Source: a virus. Taken from it: a DNA stretch of 64,000 nucleotides. The notes under the pieces were generated by a model. That model made no database searches, was not told the origin of the DNA, and was given only the letters and a program-made list of their open reading frames with translations. The position numbers were made by a program, and so were the translations under genes. Of the stretch, positions 7,545 through 49,856 are shown in pieces (position 1 is the stretch's first letter; each line of letters opens with the position of its first letter). The DNA lies in the IMG/VR virus record IMGVR_UViG_3300025910_000007, positions 20,484 to 84,483 of that record. One strand, 5' to 3'.

Positions 7545-8501
7545 CGTTGTCTCCAGTGGACTGTCGGTAGAGGCGTGCTGCATGTTCCACGTTCGCTACG
7601 GCCTGTCGATAGTACGACTTCTTCAGTTCTGCCCCAATGCCCTTTCTGCCATTCTTGACCGCCACGTAGATTTCGCTTCCCACTCCCATGAATGGAGAAA
7701 ACACCACATCATCGGGGGCAGACCACAAAGCCATGCAACGTTCGATCACATCCAATTGCAAGGGGCATATGTGACGGGCATCATCCTTGTCCTTGGCCTG
7801 CCGATAGGGCAGCACTCGCGTCTGGTCGATATCAAACCAGACCGGCGACGCATATTGCTGCCAGATCCAATGCGCCCGTTTGTTCTTGCGTGGGTCCGTA
7901 TGCATCTTCAACTGCTTCGGTACGGACCGCTCCCCGTAATAGACCGTCAGGCCGTTCTCGTTGTTGATCGGTTTGGCGTTTTCGCCGGGCTTGCGGAACG
8001 CCAGCAAATAGTCGGGTATGCCCGTCCGCACTATCGCGGAATCCTTGACCAGTTGTTGATGAGCCAGCCCAACCGCATGAGTGCGAACCGCCGCTATCAG
8101 CGGGTCTTTCCAAATGCAATGGCGGGAATGGAAGACAAATCCGTGCTCCTGAAACAGCCGGATGATGTCACCGCTAAAATCTTTCAGGCCGATTTCTTCG
8201 CCATTGCGTTTGTACGTTGGCAAGTCCATGCAATGTACCGCCACGATGCGGCCCGATGCCAGCGCCCGAAACAGTTCGGCAGCCAGATAGCCAAACTGCG
8301 TCAGGAATTCCTTGTAGGATCGGCAATTGCTCAGGTCGCGGGGGTCATCGCTGTATGAGTACAAGTCGAAAAAAACGGCGGCGAAAAGATGGAAAATCCT
8401 ACTGATTCCGCCGGCACTCCTTTCAGAATATCCATGCAGTCGCCACAATATAGGGCGTACTGAGGAGTGATTGTTTGTTTGTAGACATTGGCTATTGACA
8501 T
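7537..8501 (-). CDS. DNA methyltransferase (N4-C/N6-A, beta class), frame broken at T7
   Basis: Start ATG 8501 (MSIANVYKQT) follows AGAGGGATTC. The first 47 residues reach the catalytic motif FSPPF, then the frame is lost at a seven-T run (8369-8375). It resumes one frame away as DLYSYSDDPRDLSNC and continues to the SAM-binding FSPFMGVGSE near the C-terminus. Motif IV before motif I marks the beta class. A T5 or T8 run would restore the frame; homologues with SPPF-x-x-LY spacing favour T5 as ancestral. It may be a slippage site, a phase-variable switch, a dead gene or a consensus error. It pairs with the SF2 helicase upstream. Confidence 0.75.
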
Positions 8502-9859
8502 GAATCCCTCTTATTCAACCATGCCGGTACTTCCATGATTTGTTGCGCCACACCGTTAGCAGAGTTATCGCGCAATACCTGATTGATGCTGGCGCAAATG
8601 CCAGCATACATCTCGCAGATTTGCCGTTCCTTGCGCAGCATATTGGCCGCTACCTTGCCTTCTGCTTCAGTATGAACCAGCCGCACATTGACACGATTCT
8701 TCTGCCCAAATCGCCAGCACCGCCGCAGTGCCTGATAGTATTGTTCCACGCTATGCGTTGGAAAGTAACTCACGTCTGCGCAATGCTGCCAGTTCAGGCC
8801 GAAACTGGCGATCTTGGGCTTCGTCACCAGCGCCCGTATCTGGCCGCTGGTGAACGCCATTAGTTTCTCTTCCTTTTCCTCATCACGGTCAGCACCGCTA
8901 ACCTGTACCGCTCCGGGGATGAATCGTTCTAATAGCGCCGCTTCCTTGTTGAGCTGACACCAGGCAAGAACGGGCCGGTCTCTTGGTAGTAGTTCAGCTA
9001 CCTTCTGGCAGCGTCGTTCCGCCGTTCGTTTCTTTTCTTCGCGCTGCTCGGCCAGAGTATTCGCCTGATAAGGGAAAAAACCATTGCGGAAATCATTGGG
9101 CAGTACGACTCGTTCCGCAACCAATTCGGGTAAGATGAATGCACCGTCGGCGTAGCCCAGATCAGAAGGTAGCCGTACCGCTCGTGCCCATCCTGACATC
9201 CATTCCCAGAAGCGTGTACGGGCATGTCCCTTTAACGCCCAATGCTGCGTATCTTCCCCACCGTTGGTGAAGAACATGCCCAGCATTTGCCCACGAGGCA
9301 TGATGCCCAATGCTTCAGACAGCGAACCAATCTCCATGTGATCGTTGGGGGCAGGAGTAGCGGTACAGCCCAAACGATACGGAACCTTCGTCATGAATTC
9401 AGTAACAACTCGCCGTGTTTTGCCGTCGAAATTCTTGATGCAGCTCAGTTCATCACCGACAAAGCCCTGAAAATCAGTAGGGCGGTAATGGTGCAATTGC
9501 TCGTAATTGGTGACGTTGATCCCGCGATGCAATGCTCCGCCCTTGACGCGATGAGCAATCATGCCGAAACGTTCGGCCTCCTGAACGAACTGCCGTCCTA
9601 CAGCCAAAGGTGTCGCAATTAGAATATTGCTGTTGGTATGTCGTACCACGTTTTCAGACCAGACCAATGATAGAAGTGTTTTGCCTAGGCCGCAATCGGC
9701 GAGGGCCGCTGCCCAGCCCTGACGAATTGACCACTCCGCCAGATACTTTTGAAAATCAAAGAGACAGTCCGGTAAGAACGTCGGGGCAAATCCATGCCGA
9801 CGTCCTTGAACGGATTTGTGTTTGAGGAAAGCAGCGTATTCCCCGTTGGTATTTTTCAT
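8492..9859 (-). CDS. SF2 DEAD/SNF2-type helicase
   Basis: This 455-aa protein has a Q-like entry (FQKYLAEWSI), motif I ADCGLGKT, motif II GDELSCIKNFD, motif III GCTATPAPND, motif V/VI region SFGLNWQHC and QALRRCWRFGQKNRV. The last motif is typical of the SNF2-like subgroup often found beside a phage DNA methylase. ATG 9859 overlaps the polymerase stop (ATGA); ATG 9874 is a weaker choice. Its role is probably remodelling or unwinding at forks or at modified sites. Confidence 0.85.
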   Translation of the reverse strand: MKNTNGEYAAFLKHKSVQGRRHGFAPTFLPDCLFDFQKYLAEWSIRQGWAAALADCGLGKTLLSLVWSENVVRHTNSNILIATPLAVGRQFVQEAERFGMIAHRVKGGALHRGINVTNYEQLHHYRPTDFQGFVGDELSCIKNFDGKTRRVVTEFMTKVPYRLGCTATPAPNDHMEIGSLSEALGIMPRGQMLGMFFTNGGEDTQHWALKGHARTRFWEWMSGWARAVRLPSDLGYADGAFILPELVAERVVLPNDFRNGFFPYQANTLAEQREEKKRTAERRCQKVAELLPRDRPVLAWCQLNKEAALLERFIPGAVQVSGADRDEEKEEKLMAFTSGQIRALVTKPKIASFGLNWQHCADVSYFPTHSVEQYYQALRRCWRFGQKNRVNVRLVHTEAEGKVAANMLRKERQICEMYAGICASINQVLRDNSANGVAQQIMEVPAWLNKRDSCQ

Positions 9860-11286
9860 CCCTTCGGCCCCCATTCACCGCTCCTATCAACCCACGGATT
9901 CTTCTGGAACCAGTTCGCTTCCCCAATATCCGCCTCAACCTCCATCGGCACTACCAGCCACGGCCATTCTTTTGGCAGCTTGACTGAAACGAAATGGCGA
10001 ACGGCATTCAGGTAGTCTTGTAGTTCGCTACGGGGCACGCTGCTGATGATTGAGTCATGGATCTGGCCAACGATCTTTGCCCGCATCTTGTGCTTTTCAA
10101 TCCACTGTTGCAGCCAGACCAGCACTTGCAACAGGCAATGGAATGAGGCTCCTTGGATCACGTAGTTCAGGACTTCGTTCCTCTTATATATCCCTGAACA
10201 CTTGAAGCCAGTATGCATGGCGAACCAACCCTTACGACGGTACGCCTGCCACCATTGTTCCTTCCATAGGGTGTAGACGGGAAAGCGGTTCTGCCACAGT
10301 TCGTCTTCTGCTGACTTTACCTGCGCTTCAAATGTACCGACTGCGGGCGCATGCTTGGGATTGCATGCCCCCAATTTCGTGATACCTTTTGCAGCCAGCC
10401 AGCGCCTCATGGGAATCTTGTTGGGTCCACGCAGATAGCGGGAAGTCCGCCACAATGACGGGGCGCACTGGAAATAGACGCTGCCGTAAAATTGTGCGAA
10501 AACGAATGCCCCCTTGCACAGATTCCTGAGTGGTCCTGCATCTTCCTTGGCAATCTGGTTCCATTCTTCTCGGGTGATGAGGAAATTGTCCAGGGCGGCG
10601 TCTCGGTGCATGTCACTATCGGGGTTGACCAGATAGTCTACCAGCGTCGGGTCGTGATGGTAGCACGCGCTTACCCGCACTTCTGCGCCTCGGAAATCGT
10701 TCTCGACGATGACCCAATCTGGCCCGTCAGGTATGAATGCCGTGCGGATGTACTTGGAGATTTCCTTGTTGCGGATGGGGATGTTGGTGAAGTTGGGCGA
10801 ACTTGACGAAGACCGAAATGTGATGACGGTATTCAGGTTGAATGATGGATGCAGCCGGCCGTTGCAGACTTCTTGCGTGATCCCCTTGAGATAGGTGCCC
10901 CGCAGCTTGCACAACTTCTTCCAGCGAAAGTACGGCTTCAGGAACGGCAGCTTGATGCCAGCGAACGCCGCTTCATTGGTACTGTCCCGCCCTGTCGCCG
11001 TTACCGTCTTGCTTTTGTGTTTCAGTTCCTGAAAGACAACATGGGCCAACTGCGGGCCGCTGTCCAGATTGGCCTTCATGCCAAAGCGACGTCGCCAGAT
11101 TTTGTAAACATCGTCCGCACGTAGCTGTCGTTCCAGTTCCTCGATCTGATTGGTAACTTGGACCGTGACCCGTTCCAGATAGGGAATGTCGATACGAATT
11201 CCGTTCGCTTCAACTTTCGCTAGCGCCAGCGCCCCCTCCATGAACAGCTTGAACGCCCGCGGTGAATCGGGAACGACCTTCTGCAT
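9856..11286 (-). CDS. Family A DNA polymerase lacking the exonuclease domain
   Basis: At 476 aa this is only the polymerase half of a PolA enzyme. Motif A is VENDFRGAEVRV (equivalent to DYSQIELR), the O-helix region is LCKGAFVFAQFYGS, and motif C is IVGQIHDSIISSV with the catalytic HD. There is no N-terminal 3'-5' or 5'-3' nuclease. A separate gene at 14.1-15.4 kb supplies a 3'-5' exonuclease fused to a uracil-DNA glycosylase. Some phages such as SPO1 fuse the glycosylase-like domain to the polymerase. ATG 11286 overlaps the upstream stop. Confidence 0.9.
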   Translation of the reverse strand: MQKVVPDSPRAFKLFMEGALALAKVEANGIRIDIPYLERVTVQVTNQIEELERQLRADDVYKIWRRRFGMKANLDSGPQLAHVVFQELKHKSKTVTATGRDSTNEAAFAGIKLPFLKPYFRWKKLCKLRGTYLKGITQEVCNGRLHPSFNLNTVITFRSSSSSPNFTNIPIRNKEISKYIRTAFIPDGPDWVIVENDFRGAEVRVSACYHHDPTLVDYLVNPDSDMHRDAALDNFLITREEWNQIAKEDAGPLRNLCKGAFVFAQFYGSVYFQCAPSLWRTSRYLRGPNKIPMRRWLAAKGITKLGACNPKHAPAVGTFEAQVKSAEDELWQNRFPVYTLWKEQWWQAYRRKGWFAMHTGFKCSGIYKRNEVLNYVIQGASFHCLLQVLVWLQQWIEKHKMRAKIVGQIHDSIISSVPRSELQDYLNAVRHFVSVKLPKEWPWLVVPMEVEADIGEANWFQKNPWVDRSGEWGPKG

Positions 11287-11813: not shown

Positions 11814-12629
11814 CTAGACGATCATCTCTGCGCGATCTTGCAACACGGGCTGGTATTCCTTGTCTAATGAAAAATCATCCGCTTTGAAATCTTCGGACGT
11901 TGGGGTATAGACGAGACCGGGCGTTCGCAAACATTGCTTTTTCGCATCAGCGATACGCCGCGCCAGATCGTAGTGGGCTTGATAGATATGAACATCACCG
12001 CCGATCCAAACCAGTTTGGACGCGATCCGCCCGGTCCGATATGCTAACCACATCAAGAACGCCCAATACTGAAACCAATTGTGGGGCAGTCCGCAGATCA
12101 CATCTACCGACCGTTGGTATGTAACCAACGTCAGCCCATTGTTCTTCCCAACGAATGCTTGAATGATGGTGCCGTGGCAATTGGTAATCGGGCAAGACGA
12201 ATGAGTCATATCCGCCGTATTCCAAGTAGTGATGACGTTCCGACGGCTGAATGGATGATTTTGCACCCCATCGAGCATCAGTGCTATTTGGTCCACTGCG
12301 ATGTTGCCGATTAACGATCCACGAAAATTACGAAACTGCTGCGAGTAATTGAATGGTACATTGCCTATGTGATTTGCCCACGGCTGCCACCACGAACGAA
12401 CTTTTTCATGCAAATCCCAGATGTTACACGATCCACTCATGAACCATTCCCATTCACGCAAGCAATTCTTCCATGCCGTTTTGCGGGCTGACACAAGAGG
12501 CACGACGTTAAATTCGATTTGCATAGCGACCATGCGACGGCAAACCGAATTGCGTGTCATCAATTCTTCGCCGTCATCCAGTATGCTGCAAATCAAATCG
12601 GCATAGGTGGCATCCACGTTGCCCATCAT
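11814..12629 (-). CDS. Thymidylate synthase (ThyA family)
   Basis: The protein is 271 aa. The nucleophile lies in CPITNCHGTIIQAF, where NCH replaces the usual PCH. It is followed by TLVTYQRSVDVICGLPHNWF, the dUMP-binding RSxD-x-GLPxN signature. Asn rather than Asp after GLP argues for dUMP over dCMP. The sequence is divergent, so a hydroxymethylase activity is not excluded. ATG 12629 overlaps the upstream stop as ATGA. It should feed dTTP to phage replication. Confidence 0.8.
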   Translation of the reverse strand: MMGNVDATYADLICSILDDGEELMTRNSVCRRMVAMQIEFNVVPLVSARKTAWKNCLREWEWFMSGSCNIWDLHEKVRSWWQPWANHIGNVPFNYSQQFRNFRGSLIGNIAVDQIALMLDGVQNHPFSRRNVITTWNTADMTHSSCPITNCHGTIIQAFVGKNNGLTLVTYQRSVDVICGLPHNWFQYWAFLMWLAYRTGRIASKLVWIGGDVHIYQAHYDLARRIADAKKQCLRTPGLVYTPTSEDFKADDFSLDKEYQPVLQDRAEMIV

Positions 12630-12889
12630 CGGTACTTCCCACCTTCCTTCATTATCTCCACGTCCGTGCCGCCGTTCAGTTCCCGAAACTCTCCGTTCCA
12701 CCAAGTGTCGCCAGTAGGTCCGTCGTACATTTGGATGTTGAAACGGTAGGTTCCCGATATTTCCAACGGGTTGATGAAGCTGTGGTAATGATCGTAGTAG
12801 TATTGGCCGGGAGCGTTGGTTCGGTAGTTCCAACCATAGAGCGGTTCGCTTTCAGCGATCCAGCGTTTGTATCCAGCCAACGCTGCCAT
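12626..12889 (-). CDS. Hypothetical protein, 87 aa
   Basis: Aromatic-rich (SEPLYGWNYRTNAPGQYYYD), with no recognised domain. It is coupled to thymidylate synthase by an ATGA overlap. Function unknown. Confidence 0.6.
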   Translation of the reverse strand: MAALAGYKRWIAESEPLYGWNYRTNAPGQYYYDHYHSFINPLEISGTYRFNIQMYDGPTGDTWWNGEFRELNGGTDVEIMKEGGKYR

Positions 12890-13734: not shown

Positions 13735-14173
13735 CGTTTTCCCCAAAAGGGTTTTGTGGCGATGGTAGGGCATGAGACGCACATCCAACGTGTCCGCATC
13801 TAGGACATTTGCCAACGCCCTTAACAATTTCGTCCAGCGTCGCGGTCAATTGTCGATCATGGTAACGAGCGGCCCGTGCCTCGAACACGAACAACGCAGC
13901 CTTCAGCAAACCGATACCCGCTTCGGTTTCCGCACAGGGCAACTGGCTGTTGACATATTCGGCGCGGTCGATCAACGCCCGCAGCACTTCTTGCATCGTC
14001 GTGCCAGGGTGATGGCCAATGTTGCCGGGGTACTTGGTCCCTTCTCGCTTGACGAATGTAAGCGTTTGGAGCAGTTCTCCGTCTAGCGGGTCCAATAGGT
14101 ATTCATGGCCGCGATCAACCACTATCACAGTTTCAACCCCATTTTTGGCGCCAGCTTTTGTGCGATGTGCCAT
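13697..14173 (-). CDS. Helical-hairpin protein with C-terminal zinc motif
   Basis: The 158-aa protein has KYPGNIGHHPGTTMQEVLRA, then a helix pair (IDRAEYVNSQLPCAETEAG and FVFEARAARYHDRQL), then a CPRCGHVGC zinc site. The core recurs in many phages. The helix-pair pattern loosely recalls the hairpin of nucleotide-sponge proteins such as Acb2/Tad1, but I would not assign that function. It overlaps the exonuclease gene at its start. Confidence 0.6.
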   Translation of the reverse strand: MAHRTKAGAKNGVETVIVVDRGHEYLLDPLDGELLQTLTFVKREGTKYPGNIGHHPGTTMQEVLRALIDRAEYVNSQLPCAETEAGIGLLKAALFVFEARAARYHDRQLTATLDEIVKGVGKCPRCGHVGCASHALPSPQNPFGENDERETEVGRLSP

Positions 14174-15363
14174 TCCACCAACGAGTCCATCCCGTTATAC
14201 AGCAGCAGTTTTTGTAGCGGGGCCTCGCGGATGCGGTTGGGTGAATTGCCACCCCCTTTGGATGTCAGAAATGGCTTGATTTCATCATCGTAGCTTTCCC
14301 CACCTAGTAGCGCGAACGTCATGAACTTGGCGCCGGTGATACCCCGCCGGTTGTCCGCTACATGAGACGCCAGCATGTCGTCGATCTTCCAGTTCCGCGG
14401 CATCACGCCCAGCTTGGCCAACGACCACCGAATCTCGAACTGAATATGCTGCCCGATCTTGGGCGAGTCCGACAGGAGCATTTCTTTAGTGGCTTGGATC
14501 GCTTCCCCGTGCCAGGGGTAAGCGACGCTGATCACCCCGTCGCTAACCGAACAGCTGTAGATTTCGGCATGCGCCCCGTCCGGCTTCAAAGTGGTAGTTT
14601 CATAGTCGAACGCCAGCGGCTTCCCCACCGCCGTCATCTTCCGCACCGCTGCTGCTGCCTTGTTCGCGTCCAGCTCCACCCGCACCATCGCCTTGTAGTC
14701 AGGCGGGCCGTCCGGCCACGGCCGTCCCTTCAGTTTCAGCGCCCATTCCAACTGCTTTTCAAAATCGTTCAGCACCAATGGGTCGGGCTTGTCGTTGAAC
14801 CGCTGAGCACTGCGTAGGACGTGGCTAGGATGCCAAACGGGTGCTACCCAGGCGTTTAGTTGCTGGTTGGGGATGCGCCAACCGACCCATTTGGTGACTT
14901 CGCCGGGGTCTTCCTTCCACAGCCAGCCGATGACCGACTTGACCGCGTGTTTGCCCAACAGGATCACCAGCTCGGGCTTCAGTGCTTTGATAGCGTTGAC
15001 GACGGTAGGACGGCAGTAGCCGATTTCCTTGTCGGTAGGTTGACGGTTTTTGCCCTTGGCGTCGCTAGCGCGGCAGGCGATGGCGTTCATAATCCAGCAA
15101 TCGCGGGTCAGTTCGCACTTGAACCGACGCAGCGTTTGCTTCAGCAGATCACCAGCGGGTCCGACAAACGGCCGGCCGACAAGGTCTTCGTTTTCACCGG
15201 GGCCTTCACCGCAGATGAGGATTTTGCGGGCGCCGTCTCCATCAATCGGCATGCGAGGGCTTGCGCACTTCTTGTCGAGCTTACACGTCCAGCATTGTGG
15301 TTGCGGCGGGACCAGCAGCTTGAGCGAACGGGTTGTGACGGCGGAAAAGAAACCGGCCATCAT
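14125..15363 (-). CDS. Uracil-DNA glycosylase fused to a 3'-5' exonuclease
   Basis: The first 200 residues resemble iron-sulphur uracil-DNA glycosylases: Cys pairs CWTCKLDKKC, the uracil pocket GEGPGENEDLVGRPFVGPAG, and VWHPSHVLR as the late active-site loop. From about residue 240 a DnaQ/PolA-type exonuclease begins with Exo I LAFDYETTTLKPD, Exo II IGQHIQFEIRW and Exo III YNGMDSLVEW. The fusion supplies the proofreading that the 476-aa polymerase lacks. The glycosylase half may bind rather than excise uracil. Length is 412 aa. Confidence 0.8.
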   Translation of the reverse strand: MMAGFFSAVTTRSLKLLVPPQPQCWTCKLDKKCASPRMPIDGDGARKILICGEGPGENEDLVGRPFVGPAGDLLKQTLRRFKCELTRDCWIMNAIACRASDAKGKNRQPTDKEIGYCRPTVVNAIKALKPELVILLGKHAVKSVIGWLWKEDPGEVTKWVGWRIPNQQLNAWVAPVWHPSHVLRSAQRFNDKPDPLVLNDFEKQLEWALKLKGRPWPDGPPDYKAMVRVELDANKAAAAVRKMTAVGKPLAFDYETTTLKPDGAHAEIYSCSVSDGVISVAYPWHGEAIQATKEMLLSDSPKIGQHIQFEIRWSLAKLGVMPRNWKIDDMLASHVADNRRGITGAKFMTFALLGGESYDDEIKPFLTSKGGGNSPNRIREAPLQKLLLYNGMDSLVEWHIAQKLAPKMGLKL

Positions 15364-23626: not shown

Positions 23627-26038
23627 CTACTTCGTGGCACAGCTCGGCAGGTTGTCGCCGCGCCCCCAGGCCGAAATCCAGCCGCGAATGGTGGACACCT
23701 TGACGGCTTGATTGACGGCGTTCGCGTACTCCTCAGCATTCTTGGCCGACTTGTCTTTGTTTTTCAGCCACGCCTTGTAGACCTGCTCTTTGTTCGACGG
23801 ACCGCGGACGGTGTCGCTTTTGGCGACCTTGTCCTTCTTCGCGACCTTTGCCGGCTTGGCAGCAGCTGGGGCCTTGACATGCCCATTGCTCGCGGCTTTG
23901 GGCGCATCCCCTTCCAACCCGATCTCGGTGTGCTCGCCCAGCGCCTTGCGGATGTTCGCCAGCAGGCCCTTCAGCGTCTTGTCTTCGGGCTCGCGGACGT
24001 CCGCCTCACCCATCTCGGCCAACGTGTTCAGGTTGCGCACGATGGCCACACGCTTCGCATCGCCGGCCGCTGCGAACCCCATCGCCGCCAGCAGCTCCCG
24101 GGCCTGCTTTTCGTCAACCAGCAGCTGCTTCTTCCGCTTCGTTGCCGTTGCCATGTCTTCCTCCATTGTGTCTGTAGTGGGCGATGTCGGGTATTGTATG
24201 GACTTCGCCGACTCAGGAAACACCAATCCCGCCGCCTCTGCCTGAATCAACATCTCTTCGCGATTGCTGCCCACCTTGGCCCGACCCGTCCTGCCACAGT
24301 GCGTCCGCTCGGCCGCTTCCAGGGCCGTCCCCAGGCTGCGGTAGTGCTTGGGATAGTTGCTGCCGCCCATCTTGAGGTCCAGCTCACAGACCTGCCACGT
24401 CCCACGAATGCCGTCGACCGACGAGAAGAACTCGGCGAAGAAGTAATTCTCGCCACCGGAGAGCATCGCCGTGGCCCGGCTGACGCGATAGCGTCCGCAG
24501 ACCGTCTCCCAAATCTGCCGATAGGAGGTGGCACCGACCACCCTTTTCTCGTCGAACATCCATTCCAGCCGGCCATCATCGGGCGGGCGGATACGTACCG
24601 GCACCGCATTGTCCCGTGCTGCCGGACGGGATTCCCCAGCGTTGACCCGCTTGCGAGCCGTGAAGTCGCCCTTGCGCATCATCTCGTTCGTGACGTCGCC
24701 GGGCTTCACGCCGTGCGGGGCCAGCAGTTCCGGCCAGTCCGCCCATTGATGGACGTTCGGACCGTGCAGCCAGACCAACTCGTTGACGACGTTCTGCACG
24801 TCCGTCTTCTGCGTCTTGACGACGGGCGGTGCGGGTGCGTCGGCGTTGCCTGCGCGTTTGGTCGGCACTGAAGTGTCCTCCAGAAGTCCCTCATCCAGTG
24901 CTAGTATAACCCAGCGCTCGAACTGGACGTCACCGACCGCCTCCTTGAGCGACGCCAGATCGGCCGGCACCTCGGCATCCCCTGCAACCTGATCCGCGGT
25001 CCAGCCGCTGACGATCAGGATGGCGGCGAACTCCTCGTAGGACTGCGGGACGTCGGCGACGGTGCTGGACACGGTACGCCGTTCCGCTGCCAGCATCTGC
25101 GGTACTGCGAGGGCGCCGACGGCCTTACGGGGCAGGATGATGTCGACGACGCGGTCGTAGGTTTCCTGCAACGATTCCTTCGCAGCCGCTTCCGTCCGAA
25201 ACGGTCCGGCAACGGACGTGTTGCCATCTGCGACGTAGTAGTTCGGGAATGACGCACCGTCCGATGCGACCTTCAGACCATCAGATGCCGGGGCAGGAAT
25301 ACCAGCAGCCGTAGCAGTGGCAGACGGGGCAGGACTGTCCACCGCCGGGGTAGGCGGGAAAGGGGGCTGGTCATTCCAATTGGCGGGCGGTTCACTGACG
25401 AACGCCTCGAAATCAGGGTTGGTGATGGCTTGGCCTTCCTCCTGCTTCTTGAGGTACGCGCTGATCTCATTGGCTGCACGCTGCCGGTTGGCCGCGACCT
25501 CCTCCGGCTGATCCTCCAGCTCGCTCGGGTCCAGTTCAGCATCGGGCGTCCGGTTGGCCTCGTCGTCAGCGATCAGCCGTTCCGCTTCCTCCGGCGACGG
25601 CCGCATGGGGTCGGGCTCTTCACCAAAGTAACCGCCATCCTCCTCGCGGGCCATCAGCTGCGACGCCTGCCATTCCGGGCAGTCCGTGTTACCGCAGCTG
25701 CAACCGGGCGGATGCGCCTGCACGATGGCGTCAGTCTCTTCGCCCCAGACCTTCGCCGCTGCGTTGCTCAGTTCCTCAGCGACCGCGTTCTGCTGTTCGC
25801 AGTGGGCGGCGTAGGCGCCTTCCGTCTGCTTCAGCTCGGCGTCCTGCGCCGCATGCTCTTCGGCGAACGCCTTGGCGGCGGTCAGGGACAGCCGCTTGGT
25901 GCTGATCTTGACGTCCTTGCCATCGACCATGTGGCAGACGTCGAAGAAGCGATCCTTGCGCTTCAGCAACAGGTAGGTCGTGCCCTCACTGAAGTGATTG
26001 CCGCTGTTCTCGTCCCGCGTCCAGTTCAAGCTAGCCAT
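23627..26038 (-). CDS. Large multidomain hypothetical protein, 803 aa
   Basis: ATG 26038 (MASLNWTRDENSGNHF) follows an AGGAGACGACG site. The N-terminal segment has a small Cys site (PGCSCGNTDCPEW). A long acidic, Pro/Ala-rich linker follows (residues 140-250), then several small globular segments (VWLHGPNVHQWADWPEL, WETVCGRYRVSRAT), and a Lys/Ala-rich C-terminal region with GRGDNLPSCATK at the end. A second start with GGAGGAAGAC before ATG (MATATKRKKQLLVDEK) lies near 24155 and may give a separate 176-aa product. Function unknown. Confidence 0.65.
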   Translation of the reverse strand: MASLNWTRDENSGNHFSEGTTYLLLKRKDRFFDVCHMVDGKDVKISTKRLSLTAAKAFAEEHAAQDAELKQTEGAYAAHCEQQNAVAEELSNAAAKVWGEETDAIVQAHPPGCSCGNTDCPEWQASQLMAREEDGGYFGEEPDPMRPSPEEAERLIADDEANRTPDAELDPSELEDQPEEVAANRQRAANEISAYLKKQEEGQAITNPDFEAFVSEPPANWNDQPPFPPTPAVDSPAPSATATAAGIPAPASDGLKVASDGASFPNYYVADGNTSVAGPFRTEAAAKESLQETYDRVVDIILPRKAVGALAVPQMLAAERRTVSSTVADVPQSYEEFAAILIVSGWTADQVAGDAEVPADLASLKEAVGDVQFERWVILALDEGLLEDTSVPTKRAGNADAPAPPVVKTQKTDVQNVVNELVWLHGPNVHQWADWPELLAPHGVKPGDVTNEMMRKGDFTARKRVNAGESRPAARDNAVPVRIRPPDDGRLEWMFDEKRVVGATSYRQIWETVCGRYRVSRATAMLSGGENYFFAEFFSSVDGIRGTWQVCELDLKMGGSNYPKHYRSLGTALEAAERTHCGRTGRAKVGSNREEMLIQAEAAGLVFPESAKSIQYPTSPTTDTMEEDMATATKRKKQLLVDEKQARELLAAMGFAAAGDAKRVAIVRNLNTLAEMGEADVREPEDKTLKGLLANIRKALGEHTEIGLEGDAPKAASNGHVKAPAAAKPAKVAKKDKVAKSDTVRGPSNKEQVYKAWLKNKDKSAKNAEEYANAVNQAVKVSTIRGWISAWGRGDNLPSCATK

Positions 26039-26112
26039 CGTCGTCTCCTGTTGGTGGATTCTTCTCACCGCTTCAACACTGCCCTGTTCCGCAAGGTTGT
26101 TTGGGCTGCGGC

Positions 26113-33591: not shown

Positions 33592-34073
33592 GATTTGTCT
33601 CCGCACACAAAGGTCTGTTTCCAGTGAGACGGCAGCCGTTCCGTCAGCAGGTTTTGGTACATCGCCCAGATGATAGCTGGCGGGACGTCGTGAACGTTGC
33701 GGGCGATGGCCACGTCAACCGGGCAAAGGACGTTGACGATCTCGACATCGCGGCCATAGATTTCGGCCAGCCTGTAGTAAGGAGATATTTCCCATGCCTG
33801 CGTATTGGTGTTGTCCACGACCACCGACGCCATATCGCTGTAGTGGTCGGGATCTGTGAGCTGATTCAGGAATTTGCCGAGGCATTGATTGTGCGCCGGC
33901 CCGATGTTCGCCGGGTTGAAACGATAGACGCCGTCGATTACATGAAAGTCATCCGCTGAACAGACCAAAGGTCTGTTCAGACCGTCTAGGCCCCCCAGCA
34001 GACCGTTGTGATTGTCTTCGATCCACGTCGATTTCCCTGATCCCGGCAGCCCTCGCATGATGTAGACTTTCAT
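33588..34073 (-). CDS. 5' polynucleotide kinase-like P-loop NTPase
   Basis: 161 aa. P-loop MRGLPGSGKSTWIED at residues 6-20, then VCSADDFHVIDGVYRFNP with the SADD/YxFNP motif typical of the T4 PNK kinase domain and its relatives, and VVVDNTNTQAWEI as the base-specific NTNT motif. No phosphatase domain. It probably phosphorylates 5' ends of DNA or RNA for repair or ligation, though no ligase is seen in the window. Confidence 0.8.
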   Translation of the reverse strand: MKVYIMRGLPGSGKSTWIEDNHNGLLGGLDGLNRPLVCSADDFHVIDGVYRFNPANIGPAHNQCLGKFLNQLTDPDHYSDMASVVVDNTNTQAWEISPYYRLAEIYGRDVEIVNVLCPVDVAIARNVHDVPPAIIWAMYQNLLTERLPSHWKQTFVCGDKS

Positions 34074-35485
34074 GTGTTTCCCTCGTTGAGAAGTTCCTTG
34101 ATGAGCTGATCGAACACGCTGAGGTTGTCTCCCTTGCCGCGGCCGTCGATGGTACGGTTGATCGTTTTCTGCTTCGCTTGCAACAGTCCTACCAAACGCT
34201 CTTCAATTGTTCCTTTCGCCACGAGCCAAAATGAGCGGGAATGGATACCTTCCTGACCGCGGCCGATGCCGTGCGTGCGGTCTTCTGCTTGCGTATGCGT
34301 GGCAGGTGACCATGCGTATTCGACGAACGCTGTTGTACTGACACCTTTGGCGGACCACCCCACCCCAGTCGCCTTGATCTGCCCCAGGAACACCCGGCAT
34401 TTACCGTTGGTTAGGAACTTGTCAACGGCGTTCTGTCGCTTATGGCCGGTGATGGTGCCATCGACGCGGACGCAGCAATCCTTGTAACGCTTTTCCAGTT
34501 CGCCGAGAACGGAATGATGGACAGCGTACAGGATGATCTTTTCTTCTGAGTCATGCAGGAAGCCGTCCACCCAATCGAACACCGCTTTGAGTTTTAGTTG
34601 TGCCGCCAGTTTCTTCAGCGCTGCCAATTTCACCAACGCTGCGGCCCGCAATGATTTCTTACGTTTCTTCGGATGGAACTTGGCCAGCCATAACCCGAAC
34701 GACCGCTGCGCCAGTTCATACTCCTTCCTGCGTTCAATACCGAGCGGAACAACGTGTCGTGCTTTGGGTGGTAGCTGTTTGAGGACGTCTTCCTTGCGAC
34801 GGCGGATCATCAGGTTGTCTACCAGCAGTCGGTTAAGGACGTCGAGATTGCTGGCCCCGTCGAAGGAAATACCCCACGGTGTACGTCTGGGAGCACAGAA
34901 CTTGTGACCAAATGGCCAGAAGGATGGGAACAGGTCGGGACGAAGTATGTTCAACGTCACGAACAATTCGCGGGGGCGATTACCGATGGGCGTGCCCGAC
35001 AGCGCCAGTACGTGCGGGACGTTTCTGCAAAGCAATCTACAGGCTCGACTGCGGGCAGATTTGGTGTCGAGAAGGTAGTGGCTTTCATCGATGATGATTA
35101 GTTGCGGGTTCAGGCTGGTCAGGGCATCTACCCAGCCTTCCCGATGGACACCCTTGCGTTCGGATGGAGCCAGGATGTCATAGTTGACGATGACGACCTT
35201 TCGACGCGACCACGAACCGCCGCGGCGGGGGGACAGCCCCCCAACCACGGCAGCCCCCAGCCCGAAATGCACGCGGCACTCACGTTCCCAGTTGTACTTC
35301 AATCCTGCTGGACAGACGATGACGATAGGCAGCAGCGCAGGATTGCGGTGAGCGTACAGCAGCGCTTGCAGGCTTTTGCCCAGCCCCATCGAATCGGCAA
35401 GGAGCGCCCTGCCATCGAAGCGTTCTATGGCCTCGACGCCTTCGATTTGGAACGGGTAAGGTTCGGTGAGAATGCGGCGAATCAT
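34070..35485 (-). CDS. SNF2-family helicase
   Basis: 471 aa with all helicase motifs: Q/I region YPFQIEGVEAIE and LADSMGLGKSLQALL, Ia VCPAGLKYNWERE, II IIIDESHYLLD, III ALSGTPIGNRP, V GQIKATGVGWSAKGV and VI TQAEDRTHGIGRGQ. It is a SMARCAL1/HepA-like single-subunit translocase. Possible roles are fork remodelling or displacement of bound proteins. It is the second SF2 enzyme in the left arm. Confidence 0.9.
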   Translation of the reverse strand: MIRRILTEPYPFQIEGVEAIERFDGRALLADSMGLGKSLQALLYAHRNPALLPIVIVCPAGLKYNWERECRVHFGLGAAVVGGLSPRRGGSWSRRKVVIVNYDILAPSERKGVHREGWVDALTSLNPQLIIIDESHYLLDTKSARSRACRLLCRNVPHVLALSGTPIGNRPRELFVTLNILRPDLFPSFWPFGHKFCAPRRTPWGISFDGASNLDVLNRLLVDNLMIRRRKEDVLKQLPPKARHVVPLGIERRKEYELAQRSFGLWLAKFHPKKRKKSLRAAALVKLAALKKLAAQLKLKAVFDWVDGFLHDSEEKIILYAVHHSVLGELEKRYKDCCVRVDGTITGHKRQNAVDKFLTNGKCRVFLGQIKATGVGWSAKGVSTTAFVEYAWSPATHTQAEDRTHGIGRGQEGIHSRSFWLVAKGTIEERLVGLLQAKQKTINRTIDGRGKGDNLSVFDQLIKELLNEGNT

Positions 35486-43993: not shown

Positions 43994-44196
43994 TGACTGA
44001 ACCGCATTGCAGTTGTTTGGCTGCTGCCGGGGACAATCGTTCCTGCCCTGTTCATTTTCCCAACGGCCCACCACCGCTCGCGGGTCGATACTGCATTGAC
44101 TGCGACACGTTTCAGCCGGTCCCGCTTTTCGGTGGACCGTGGCCGCATACATGCCCACGTTGCGGTTGCGTCGATGCGTTCAGGGATAAGTCATGA
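43993..44196 (+). CDS. Zinc-ribbon protein, 67 aa
   Basis: MTEPHCSCLAAAGDNRSCPV then RYCIDCDTFQPV and HTCPRCGCVDAF. Four Cys pairs. ATG 43993 sits directly after the conserved flank of the inverted-repeat element. Unknown. Confidence 0.6.
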   Translation: MTEPHCSCLAAAGDNRSCPVHFPNGPPPLAGRYCIDCDTFQPVPLFGGPWPHTCPRCGCVDAFRDKS

Positions 44197-44552
44197 CCGC
44201 TGAAGAATGCTTCATTGCTGCCATCCTGGCCAACCCTGACGCGGACGGTCCCCGGCTTCAATTCGCGGACTGGCTGGAAGAACGTGGGGACGAACGAGCG
44301 CCCAAGCTGCGGGAACCGGGGCGGCTGATGCTTTGCAGGATTCCGGCAGGTAACAGGCTGGCGTTCGACCTTGAATGGCGAATTCATGGGTATCGCAATA
44401 CCGTAGTAGCCGGACGGATCGACTTTACAGAAGAGACACAGCTCCGCTGCCCTTACAATTGCGCCAATGAGCAAGGCGAGTGGCATGGGCTGTACGTTCG
44501 GGAAGAGGGCAAGTGGACAGGTCTGAGTTGTGCTAATGCCCAGGCTATTTAG
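44193..44552 (+). CDS. TIGR02996-domain protein, 119 aa
   Basis: MTAEECFIAAILANPDADGP followed by RLQFADWLEERGDERA is a full TIGR02996 N-terminal domain. The rest (AKLREPGRLMLCRIPAGNRL, then LEWRIHGYRNTVVAGRID) is unrecognised. The family is amplified in Gemmata-like planctomycetes, so this is the clearest host marker in the window. Confidence 0.75.
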   Translation: MTAEECFIAAILANPDADGPRLQFADWLEERGDERAPKLREPGRLMLCRIPAGNRLAFDLEWRIHGYRNTVVAGRIDFTEETQLRCPYNCANEQGEWHGLYVREEGKWTGLSCANAQAI

Positions 44553-46572: not shown

Positions 46573-46823
46573 AAAAGGTCGGGAAGCGCGTTCGGCCATT
46601 CCACGTCGAATGCCCTTTCTGCGGCTTTCTGAACGTTGCGGTCACGACCTATTCGTGGTGCGGTGGGTGCTATGTCGAGTACACGCGGAACAAAAGAAGC
46701 GGTCGCGTCACTTTCGACACGGAACTAAAGACCGACCGATTCATCTGGGCAATCGCGCTTGCGAAGGCGGGTGGGATGAGGATGGGCAGTATCGCAGAAG
46801 AGGAGAAGGAGCGGAACGAATGA
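46569..46823 (+). CDS. Zinc-ribbon protein, 84 aa
   Basis: FHVECPFCGFLNVAVTTYSW followed by CGGCYVEYTRNKRSGRVTFD is a CxxC...CxxC ribbon. The end is helical and charged. ATGA coupled on both sides. Unknown. Confidence 0.6.
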   Translation: MKKVGKRVRPFHVECPFCGFLNVAVTTYSWCGGCYVEYTRNKRSGRVTFDTELKTDRFIWAIALAKAGGMRMGSIAEEEKERNE

Positions 46824-47275
46824 GCGGGACAGAACTGACCCAAGAGCAAGTGCAAAAGCTATCCGCTGGGCGCGACCTTGATTTGCTGATCGCTGAAAAG
46901 GTGCTGGGCTGGCGCTGGTGGTATATCCCTCTGGCGAGAGTACGTGTATTGTATCCACCCGACGAGCAGTTGGCATGGATGACAACGCCCGCGGATGGAA
47001 CGGAGCCAATTGGCGCAGCTACGCGGTTTCTGTGGCCGCCCAAGTACAGCACTGATGTTGCTCTGGCATTCAGCGTTGTTGAGGCGATGTCATCATATGG
47101 CTGCGGTTTGGTTCTCGAAGACTGGCGCAATGAAAGCGAGCTGTATCCGTGGGCAGCATATTTCGGTTTGCCTGACGGTGGTACTAGCGCACAAGGGGTA
47201 GCGGATACCGCACCGCTGGCCATCTGCCGTGCTGCGTTGCTGGTGCCGGAACGTTTGCTGAGGAAAGGGCAATGA
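46820..47275 (+). CDS. Phage ABA-sandwich-like protein, second copy
   Basis: 151 aa. LSAGRDLDLLIAEKVLGWRW, then PPKYSTDVALAFSVVEAMSS and ADTAPLAICRAALLVPERLL are strong matches to the family pattern (LD..IAEKVLGW, YSTD, APLAICRAALL). Better conserved than the first copy. ATGA overlap with terL. Confidence 0.75.
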   Translation: MSGTELTQEQVQKLSAGRDLDLLIAEKVLGWRWWYIPLARVRVLYPPDEQLAWMTTPADGTEPIGAATRFLWPPKYSTDVALAFSVVEAMSSYGCGLVLEDWRNESELYPWAAYFGLPDGGTSAQGVADTAPLAICRAALLVPERLLRKGQ

Positions 47276-49461
47276 CGCTCACGCTGGAACTGGAGAATGG
47301 CATTGCGGTCGTACCGGACGATCCCGCTGAGTATCATCCGCTCATTTGCCAGGATCGTCTGTCTGAGTTCGTCCGAGAATTTTGGTCCGAGATACCCGGT
47401 GCTGGCAAATTGATATGGAACTGGCACATGGATGTGCTATGCGATGAGTTGCAGACCGTTGCTGAGCGGCTGATCGCCGGACTGCCCAAAGAACATGATA
47501 CCGTTTTCAACATCAGCCCCGGCACGTCCAAGTCGTCCATCTGTTCCATTTTGTTCCCTGCTTGGTTATGGACGCGGATGCCCCATGCCCGCATTTTGAC
47601 CGCCAGTCATACTTCGGATTTGGCGTTGGATCTGGCCGCCAAAAGCCGCGATGTTGTCCGCAGTGAAAAGTATCGGGCATGGTTTCCTGACATCGACATT
47701 CGCGAAGATACGGACAGCAAGGGGCATTATCGCAATTCGCATGGTGGGGAGCGGAAGGTCTGCACCGTATCTGGTGTGTCGCCGATGGGCTTTCATGCAC
47801 ATGCCATCATTGTGGATGATCCGATTGACCCGAAGAAGGTGTTGTCTGTTGCTGAACTGGAGACAGCGAAGAAGTTCGTGGACGAGGTAATTCCGTCCCG
47901 CAAAGTGGATAAGTTGGTGTCCGTGACATTCTTGGTTATGCAACGATTGGGATTGGGCGATCCTTCAGATGTGATGCTGAAGGGAGCAGCACGCGAGGGG
48001 GCGTCTCCCGTTCGTCAAGTTTGTTTGCCTGCTGAATTGGTGAAGGGCGATGATGGGGCGTTCGCCGATACGGGCGTGGAGCCAAAGGAACTGGCCCGCC
48101 GTTACATCGAAGGTCTGATGGACCCGATACGGTTGGGTCCGCAGGTATTGCGGGATTTTCATTCTCGCGGCGAGCTGTACTACAGCACGCAATTTCTTCA
48201 GCGTCCGTATGCCCGCAGTGGTGGAATGTTCCATGAAGACTGGTTTTCCAAGAGAATCAAGGCGGCTCCTTACAAATGCAGACGGGTTCGTTCTTGGGAT
48301 CGCGCTCAGACGGAAAGCGGCGGCTGTGCGACAGCTGGGACGTTGTTAGGTATGGACGAGGTCAAGGCGTTGTATGTTGAGGATGTCGTCAAGGGTCATT
48401 GGGCGCCCGATCAGCGCAACGCCATGATTTTGGCTACGGCATTGCGCGACCGCATTCGCTATGGCCCCAAGTATGAGCCCATCATACTGGTTGAGAATGA
48501 AGGGGGCAGTACGTCCGGGGATGCCAATTTGGCGCTGGCCCGCAAGTTGCATGGCTTTCGCGTTATTTTTGAGCATCCTACTGGCAAGAAGGAAATCCGC
48601 GCCGATCCGTGGGCTTCGCAGTTGGCTGCTGGTAACGTTTGGTTAGTAGACAACGGCGAAAGGGAAGGGCAGGGCAAGGCGACGTGGGACATCAATGATT
48701 ACATCGCAGAGCATTTGGCCTTTCCTGTCGGAGCCGCTTTGAAGGATCAGGTAGATTCTTCCAGTGCCGGCAGCACTTGGTTGGCTAATCAGATTCGCAA
48801 TGGCCCTGCCATGCGGACTCTCCCCTACCGCAATCGCAAGAAAAATGAGCTGGGCGTCATCGTCTGCACTGAGGATGAACTGGCGGTTACATTGATAGAG
48901 CAGCAGTGCATGTTGGTTCATGTCGTCGATCCTTCGCCCGCAGTCGAGGAGGTGATGTGCAATGAGGCTTCGGCGGCCGCATCCACAGGCGTGCGATTGT
49001 CAGGAGTGTCGGTTGAAGTGAATGGGGGGGTGGGGCAGTCCGCACTTGTTCGCAACCCCGCGGCGGCCTTGTTGGCCGAAGCTCCGCCCCCTCATGCTTT
49101 ACCGAATCTGTTGGGTCATGTAACGCTGACGTTCGCTGCCATTGATCCGGTCGATTATCAGGACCGTTGGGCTGAGCCCATCCCGCCGTGGAACTTGCCT
49201 GCGGATAAACTCATCATGTCGCGTGATGACGGCCGCAAGCTGTGGGGTTTTCTGTCCAAACGTCGCGATATCCCGCCGGAGGTTGTGGTGTTCTGCGATG
49301 ATGGGGACGGCCGCGCCCTTTCGTTGGCAGTGGCATTCTGTGAGATCATGCGATATCCTTTGGAAACGATCCATCGGCCGAATGAAGAAGCAAAGGTAAC
49401 GGCAGCGCCGATCAAGCACGTGGCGGATATGGCGAAAACTTGTAGGGCATTGGTGATGTAG
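47272..49461 (+). CDS. terL: Terminase large subunit with a C-terminal phosphatase-like domain
   Basis: 729 aa, about 200 more than usual. The ATPase half has the P-loop-like FNISPGTSKSSICSILFPAW near residue 82, ILTASHTSDLALD and the Walker B AIIVDDPIDP. The nuclease half has RSWDRAQTESGGCATAG, PIILVENEGGSTSGD and GAALKDQVDSSSAGS. After residue 550 comes a linker, then HVTLTFAAIDPVDYQDRW, RDDGRKLWGFLSKR and EVVVFCDDGDGRALSLAVAF. The last is a C-x5-R loop in the place where dual-specificity phosphatases have HCxxGxxRS, here FC for HC. The fusion is unusual; catalysis is unproven. Confidence 0.85.
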   Translation: MTLTLELENGIAVVPDDPAEYHPLICQDRLSEFVREFWSEIPGAGKLIWNWHMDVLCDELQTVAERLIAGLPKEHDTVFNISPGTSKSSICSILFPAWLWTRMPHARILTASHTSDLALDLAAKSRDVVRSEKYRAWFPDIDIREDTDSKGHYRNSHGGERKVCTVSGVSPMGFHAHAIIVDDPIDPKKVLSVAELETAKKFVDEVIPSRKVDKLVSVTFLVMQRLGLGDPSDVMLKGAAREGASPVRQVCLPAELVKGDDGAFADTGVEPKELARRYIEGLMDPIRLGPQVLRDFHSRGELYYSTQFLQRPYARSGGMFHEDWFSKRIKAAPYKCRRVRSWDRAQTESGGCATAGTLLGMDEVKALYVEDVVKGHWAPDQRNAMILATALRDRIRYGPKYEPIILVENEGGSTSGDANLALARKLHGFRVIFEHPTGKKEIRADPWASQLAAGNVWLVDNGEREGQGKATWDINDYIAEHLAFPVGAALKDQVDSSSAGSTWLANQIRNGPAMRTLPYRNRKKNELGVIVCTEDELAVTLIEQQCMLVHVVDPSPAVEEVMCNEASAAASTGVRLSGVSVEVNGGVGQSALVRNPAAALLAEAPPPHALPNLLGHVTLTFAAIDPVDYQDRWAEPIPPWNLPADKLIMSRDDGRKLWGFLSKRRDIPPEVVVFCDDGDGRALSLAVAFCEIMRYPLETIHRPNEEAKVTAAPIKHVADMAKTCRALVM

Positions 49462-49469
49462 GAGCATCC

Positions 49470-49856
49470 ATGAACGTGACCGAAGTGGAAATTGTGTTGG
49501 CTGGGCAGCAGGACGATCCTCGCATACTGGGCTACTGTTCGGTGGTGTTCGGTGATGATTTCGTCCTGCACGAACTGAAGATCATCAGCGGTGACTACGG
49601 GCCGATTGTGTGCATGCCGTCGCGCAAGGTAACACGTCGTTGTTTCAAATGCGGCCGCAAGAACGCCGTACAGAACAATTACTGCGGCTACTGCGGTTGT
49701 ACTTTGGAGGTCAGCAACCGCCCGTCGCGTGACAACCATGCGGACATCTTCCACCCCATCAACAATAGCGCCCGTGAGAAGCTGTCTGCGGCGATACTGA
49801 ATGCGTACTGGCGGCAGCAGGATTTGCAGATGGATCATGTGGGGGCCGTTGAATGA
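49470..49856 (+). CDS. SpoVG-like protein with inserted zinc ribbon
   Basis: 128 aa. MNVTEVEIVLAGQQDDPRIL, YCSVVFGDDFVLHELKIISG and YGPIVCMPSRK match the SpoVG fold, and HADIFHPINNSAREKLSAAI matches its C-terminal part. Between them, where SpoVG has a short loop, lies CFKCGRKNAVQNNYCGYCGC, a zinc ribbon. SpoVG proteins bind RNA and DNA and act as global regulators. The insertion appears novel. Next gene is a sigma factor, which suggests late-gene control. Confidence 0.75.
   Translation: MNVTEVEIVLAGQQDDPRILGYCSVVFGDDFVLHELKIISGDYGPIVCMPSRKVTRRCFKCGRKNAVQNNYCGYCGCTLEVSNRPSRDNHADIFHPINNSAREKLSAAILNAYWRQQDLQMDHVGAVE

Follow-up and report, generated by a model that had tools for sequence, protein, structure and literature searches.

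Large terminase subunits (TerLs) of the phrog_38 type, such as those of Rhizobium phage RHph_Y52 and the IMG/VR loci L046, L047 and L064, consist of an ATPase and nuclease core with conserved motifs and end, tail-less, near the end of the nuclease at about 470–615 aa in total. The phrog_5614-type proteins, which are dual-specificity phosphatase (DSP)-like, are separate proteins of about 140–180 aa, in which the elements VxLxxE...DP, LxF, a helix, VVxCxxGxxR and PN follow one another. Stand-alone members include PhiPA3 gp286, Phosso gp262, D3 orf59, a PAJU2 protein, and Gemmatimonadota and Armatimonadota proteins; we found no description of a role for small DSP-like phage genes. In the DSP/PTP cysteine phosphatases (Pfam DSPc, PF00782; DUSP10 and DUSP16), a CxxGxxR P-loop lies behind a hydrophobic strand and is followed by a helix. 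The sequence collections and literature that we searched yielded no fusion of a TerL to a cysteine-phosphatase-like domain. Here, we describe a 729-aa viral protein in which a TerL continues into a tail that resembles the phrog_5614-type family.

The TerL core and its tail-less relatives

We analysed a window of 64,000 bases, the whole stretch of DNA under study, which corresponds to bases 20484–84483 of an 84,483-base virus record. The TerL gene has the following features (window coordinates):

47272..49461, plus strand: complete ORF of 729 aa, stop-free; TerL with a C-terminal DSP-like tail
47272..48816, plus strand: TerL core, residues 1–515, ATPase then RNase H-like nuclease, from PHROG matches and alignment with TerLs
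47509..47535, plus strand: Walker A region NISPGTSKS, residues 80–88; N80, P83, K87 and S88 invariant in the TerL alignment
47815..47823, plus strand: Walker B acidic pair D182 D183, then P184; invariant in the TerL alignment
48298..48756, plus strand: nuclease acidic residues D343, D492 and D495; invariant in the TerL alignment, with a role deduced from TerL nucleases as a family

The TerL-family matches in a PHROG search span residues 26–514, and conserved residues were judged from an alignment with five TerLs. Besides phrog_38 (E 9.4e-51), the ATPase is indicated by phrog_4758 (E 5.8e-34) and the invariance of K87, S88, D182 and D183, and the RNase H-like nuclease by phrog_979 (E 1.2e-20) and the invariance of D343, D492 and D495. 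Judged by its sequence, the TerL core is complete and intact; as usual for these proteins, the ATPase would translocate DNA and the nuclease would cut it. Relatives of the core occur in Rhizobium phages (about 31% identity) and in IMG/VR contigs (35–42%), and the phrog_38-type TerLs share 31–40% identity with it over about 480 residues. At 729 aa with an added domain, the protein departs from the usual TerL length and domain make-up, which has no added C-terminal domain.

An earlier note on this DNA had proposed a TerL with an extra C-terminal domain, and this is borne out by the uninterrupted frame, the PHROG matches and the lack of a counterpart to the tail in relatives. The extension is longer than the roughly 180 residues then given, at about 214, and the motif quoted as the end of the protein is followed by 40 further residues after residue 689. 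The comparison of homologous TerLs with and without the tail, which the note had suggested, gave a uniform answer: no equivalent of residues 516–729 is present in any of the approximately 80 nearest IMG/VR TerLs, whose frames run on for at most a few dozen residues once the core has ended. Larger leftovers among these were read as local alignment halting early inside the core, because the total lengths are about 440–650 aa.

Direct searches with the tail returned no matches in Pfam, PHROGs, NCBIfam, PDB sequences, phages, IMG/VR or GTDB genomes, and an IMG/VR search with a tail-first family alignment found no relative. One hit, in G025, aligned with tail residues 68–111 at E 0.037. A plasmid match, H98 (FCDDADGR, E 0.03), was discarded as a relative since it lies in a spurious frame antisense to a longer frame. 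The fusion was not found in a second genome among the phages, IMG/VR and GTDB genomes searched and is known from one assembly only.

Comparison of the tail with DSP-like proteins

As a search probe we used a consensus sequence for a family of small DSP-like proteins. The probe picked up phrog_5614 together with actual proteins of the phages Phosso, Phabio, Noxifer and PhiPA3, and later IMG/VR and bacterial members; those added to the profile were found by family models, independently of the tail. The resulting family profile finds phosphatases with solved structures, of both the dual-specificity and the tyrosine type (DUSP16, E 1.5e-7). In one IMG/VR contig (L007, 2857–3774), a single frame runs from the DSP-like domain into an apparent Nudix motif, GGHMEWGETPEETAIRETLEETG, seen by eye, so fusions of the family to further enzymes may exist. 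No stand-alone phrog_5614 protein was found in the present virus record.

The score of the tail against the family profile climbed from 5.5 bits with 12 members to 8.5 with 23 and 15.9 with 41, the last being E 4.6e-7 as a single comparison. Among 8,119 ORFs from the loci and the window, the TerL frame ranked first (12.8 bits, E about 0.033–0.035; runner-up 7.7 bits), and the tail alone over the same number of ORFs gave E 0.0037. Four of five subfamily profiles, each used alone, gave the tail E values of 8e-4 to 1e-7, the best being that of Gemmatimonadota (18.0 bits). Since dropping any one subfamily leaves the tail at E <=3.4e-5, the result is not carried by a single subfamily. With the 41-member profile, none of 5000 shuffles of the tail matched the real score, whether unconstrained, with CDDGDGR fixed or with VVVFCDDGDGRALSLAVAF fixed; with the 23-member profile, the real score was reached by 11 of 5000 shuffles in which VVVFCDDGDGRALSLAVAF was fixed. 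An hmmscan of PHROGs did not detect the relation of the tail to phrog_5614.

Addition of the tail to the family alignment by MAFFT aligned five family features with it in family order:

48817..49458, plus strand: tail, residues 516–729, DSP-like domain interrupted by a long insert; coding frame, 15.9 bits against the family profile, hhalign P 3.7e-5
48853..48936, plus strand: putative strand 1, helix 1 and strand 2, VIVCTEDELAV...MLVHVVDPS, residues 528–555; MAFFT placement
49117..49146, plus strand: HVTLTFAAID, residues 616–625, counterpart of family vLrLqFhDid, with HVTLTF at 616–621
49219..49260, plus strand: helix ahead of the P-loop strand, SRDDGRKLWGFLSK, residues 650–663; profile match and MAFFT placement
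49294..49314, plus strand: P-loop CDDGDGR, residues 675–681; CxxGxxR kept, flanked by F674 and A682
49378..49383, plus strand: P703 N704, aligned by MAFFT with the PN that is conserved in the family; hmmalign places this element elsewhere

Residues 528–555 are the counterpart of the family's VLSRE...ISITDP, with VC...DP placed by MAFFT at 531–554. The reading of CDDGDGR as C-x5-R proved correct, and the stricter CxxGxxR fits as well. The helix ahead of it reads SRDDGRKLWGFL, where the note had given an EHIxxL-type segment. Relative to the phrog_5614-type proteins, the tail keeps the order of the elements but is fused to TerL and holds an insert of roughly 60 residues; it shares with the DSP/PTP cysteine phosphatases the P-loop and its flanking strand and helix, and falls below Pfam DSPc detection. 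The first three, N-terminal family blocks score non-significantly on their own, so the case leans mostly on the last 80–100 residues.

We used AlphaFold2 to model the tail. The single sequence gave a mean pLDDT of 31.5, which is uninformative, while a run with 17 family members gave 64.5, with 81–85 in the first strand-helix-strand and near the P-loop. The top Foldseek matches of the alignment-guided model were PTP/DSP phosphatases (E about 0.05), a circular result: because the input alignment presupposes homology, the model provides consistency, not proof.

The tail might instead be a real C-terminal extension of TerL with another fold or no stable fold, its P-loop resemblance arising by chance. 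The uninformative single-sequence prediction, the alignable part of only about 80 residues, the non-significant first blocks and the E value of 0.03 reached by a spurious antisense frame with FCDDADGR all speak for this, but chance sits poorly with the motif-kept shuffles, the first rank among 8,119 ORFs and the support from several separate subfamilies, and we consider it unlikely. On the same sequence evidence, the tail is homologous at the profile level to the phrog_5614-type DSP-like family.

Catalytic residues of the tail

Five positions are invariant in all 41 family members: the Cys, Gly and Arg of CxxGxxR, the Asp in LxFxD, and the Ser after the Arg. The tail keeps the first three as C675, G678 and R681, whereas MAFFT places A623 at the invariant Asp, with D625 nearby, and A682 replaces the Ser. 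The His usual in the family (35/41) is F674, as the earlier note had observed. Thus, where phrog_5614-type proteins carry HCxxGxSRS and the invariant Asp, the tail has FCDDGDGRA and an Ala, and it is without all three of the His, Asp and Ser of the DSP/PTP cysteine phosphatases. Its P-loop also holds three Asp. In the cysteine-phosphatase mechanism, such losses and an acidic P-loop speak against efficient hydrolysis of phosphate esters.

We therefore consider a binding function of the tail more probable than phosphatase activity. The suggestion of a DSP-like domain that may be only a binding fold holds at the sequence level, with 15.9 bits and five ordered features; an active phosphatase is not supported. 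An active enzyme would work through Cys675 and Arg681 with D625 as a substitute general acid, and, while packaging proceeds, would take phosphate from a nucleotide, a DNA end, or a protein of the host or of the packaging machinery. The retained Cys, Gly and Arg would suit it, as would the Asp that FAAID retains two positions past the lost one; set against the substitution of two invariant residues and the usual His, and three P-loop Asp that are unfavourable to binding a phosphate dianion in the general PTP mechanism, we regard this as distinctly unlikely.

Reading frame across the fusion

Codon usage was compared along the gene. The score in the TerL frame is 0.17 for the tail and 0.20 for the core, and in every full-length stretch this frame outscores the other five; the weakest stretch, residues 541–620 (0.04), coincides with the insert and with seven consecutive G. 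Because codon usage is TerL-like throughout, we read the tail as protein in the TerL frame, and the frameshift between TerL and tail that had been raised as a concern is not indicated. That a chimeric assembly or a frameshift has linked TerL with an adjacent stand-alone DSP-like gene could be suspected from the single metagenomic virus record, the G run near 49024–49031 and the absence of the fusion from siblings, but is very unlikely given that the TerL frame has the top coding score on either side of the G run and over the junction, that codon composition is alike in core and tail, and that inspection by eye of the region where the DSP-like part begins revealed no start codon preceded by a plausible ribosome-binding site.

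Neighbouring genes and host

Immediately upstream of TerL lies a phage ABA sandwich domain (PF18066, E 5.4e-10; 46610–47275, plus strand). Several relatives have a gene of roughly 500 residues downstream of TerL, whereas here a SpoVG-like protein follows immediately (PF04026, E 2.3e-19; 49470–49856, plus strand), with a zinc-ribbon segment (CFKCGRK...CGYCGC) inserted within its domain, and then a sigma-70 factor gene.

Elsewhere in the window, a DNA polymerase (phrog_17) is found in two minus-strand frames (9856–11286 and 14125–15363), covering profile positions 473–828 and 832–1235, with a thymidylate synthase gene between the halves (PF00303, E 1.6e-46; 11814–12833, minus strand). Two helicases (8492–9874 and 34070–35485, minus strand) match the same phrog_62 stretch in one genome, and an 813-residue frame (23627–26068, minus strand) has zero Pfam or PHROG matches.

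TIGR02996 (rpt_mate_G_obs), a repeat-companion domain, scores above its cut-off both at 44202–44303, in the frame 44193–44552 (plus strand), and left of the window in the same record (G000, 14224–14334, minus strand). We take TIGR02996 to be a family of Gemmata-type planctomycetes, and so infer that this phage probably has a planctomycete-like bacterium as its host.

Discussion

The 729-aa protein is best read, with fair probability, as a TerL with a captured and degraded DSP-like domain. On this reading, a gene fusion captured a small, free-standing DSP-like protein of the phrog_5614 type, from which the tail would descend. The tail would then have lost efficient catalysis and would now serve the packaging motor as an attached module for docking or regulation. 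In this role it may recognise a partner that is acidic or phosphorylated, for example the portal, the procapsid or a host factor; alternatively, it may modulate motor assembly. A packaging motor whose own phosphatase domain is active or senses phosphate, and would thereby couple packaging to the phosphorylation state of a viral or host protein, seems to us improbable.

If the tail is only a degraded leftover, the protein shows that TerL tolerates a C-terminal addition of 200 residues. Since fusions point to functional partners, the joining of TerL and tail connects a DSP-like domain with the packaging of DNA or the assembly of virions, a connection that is testable.
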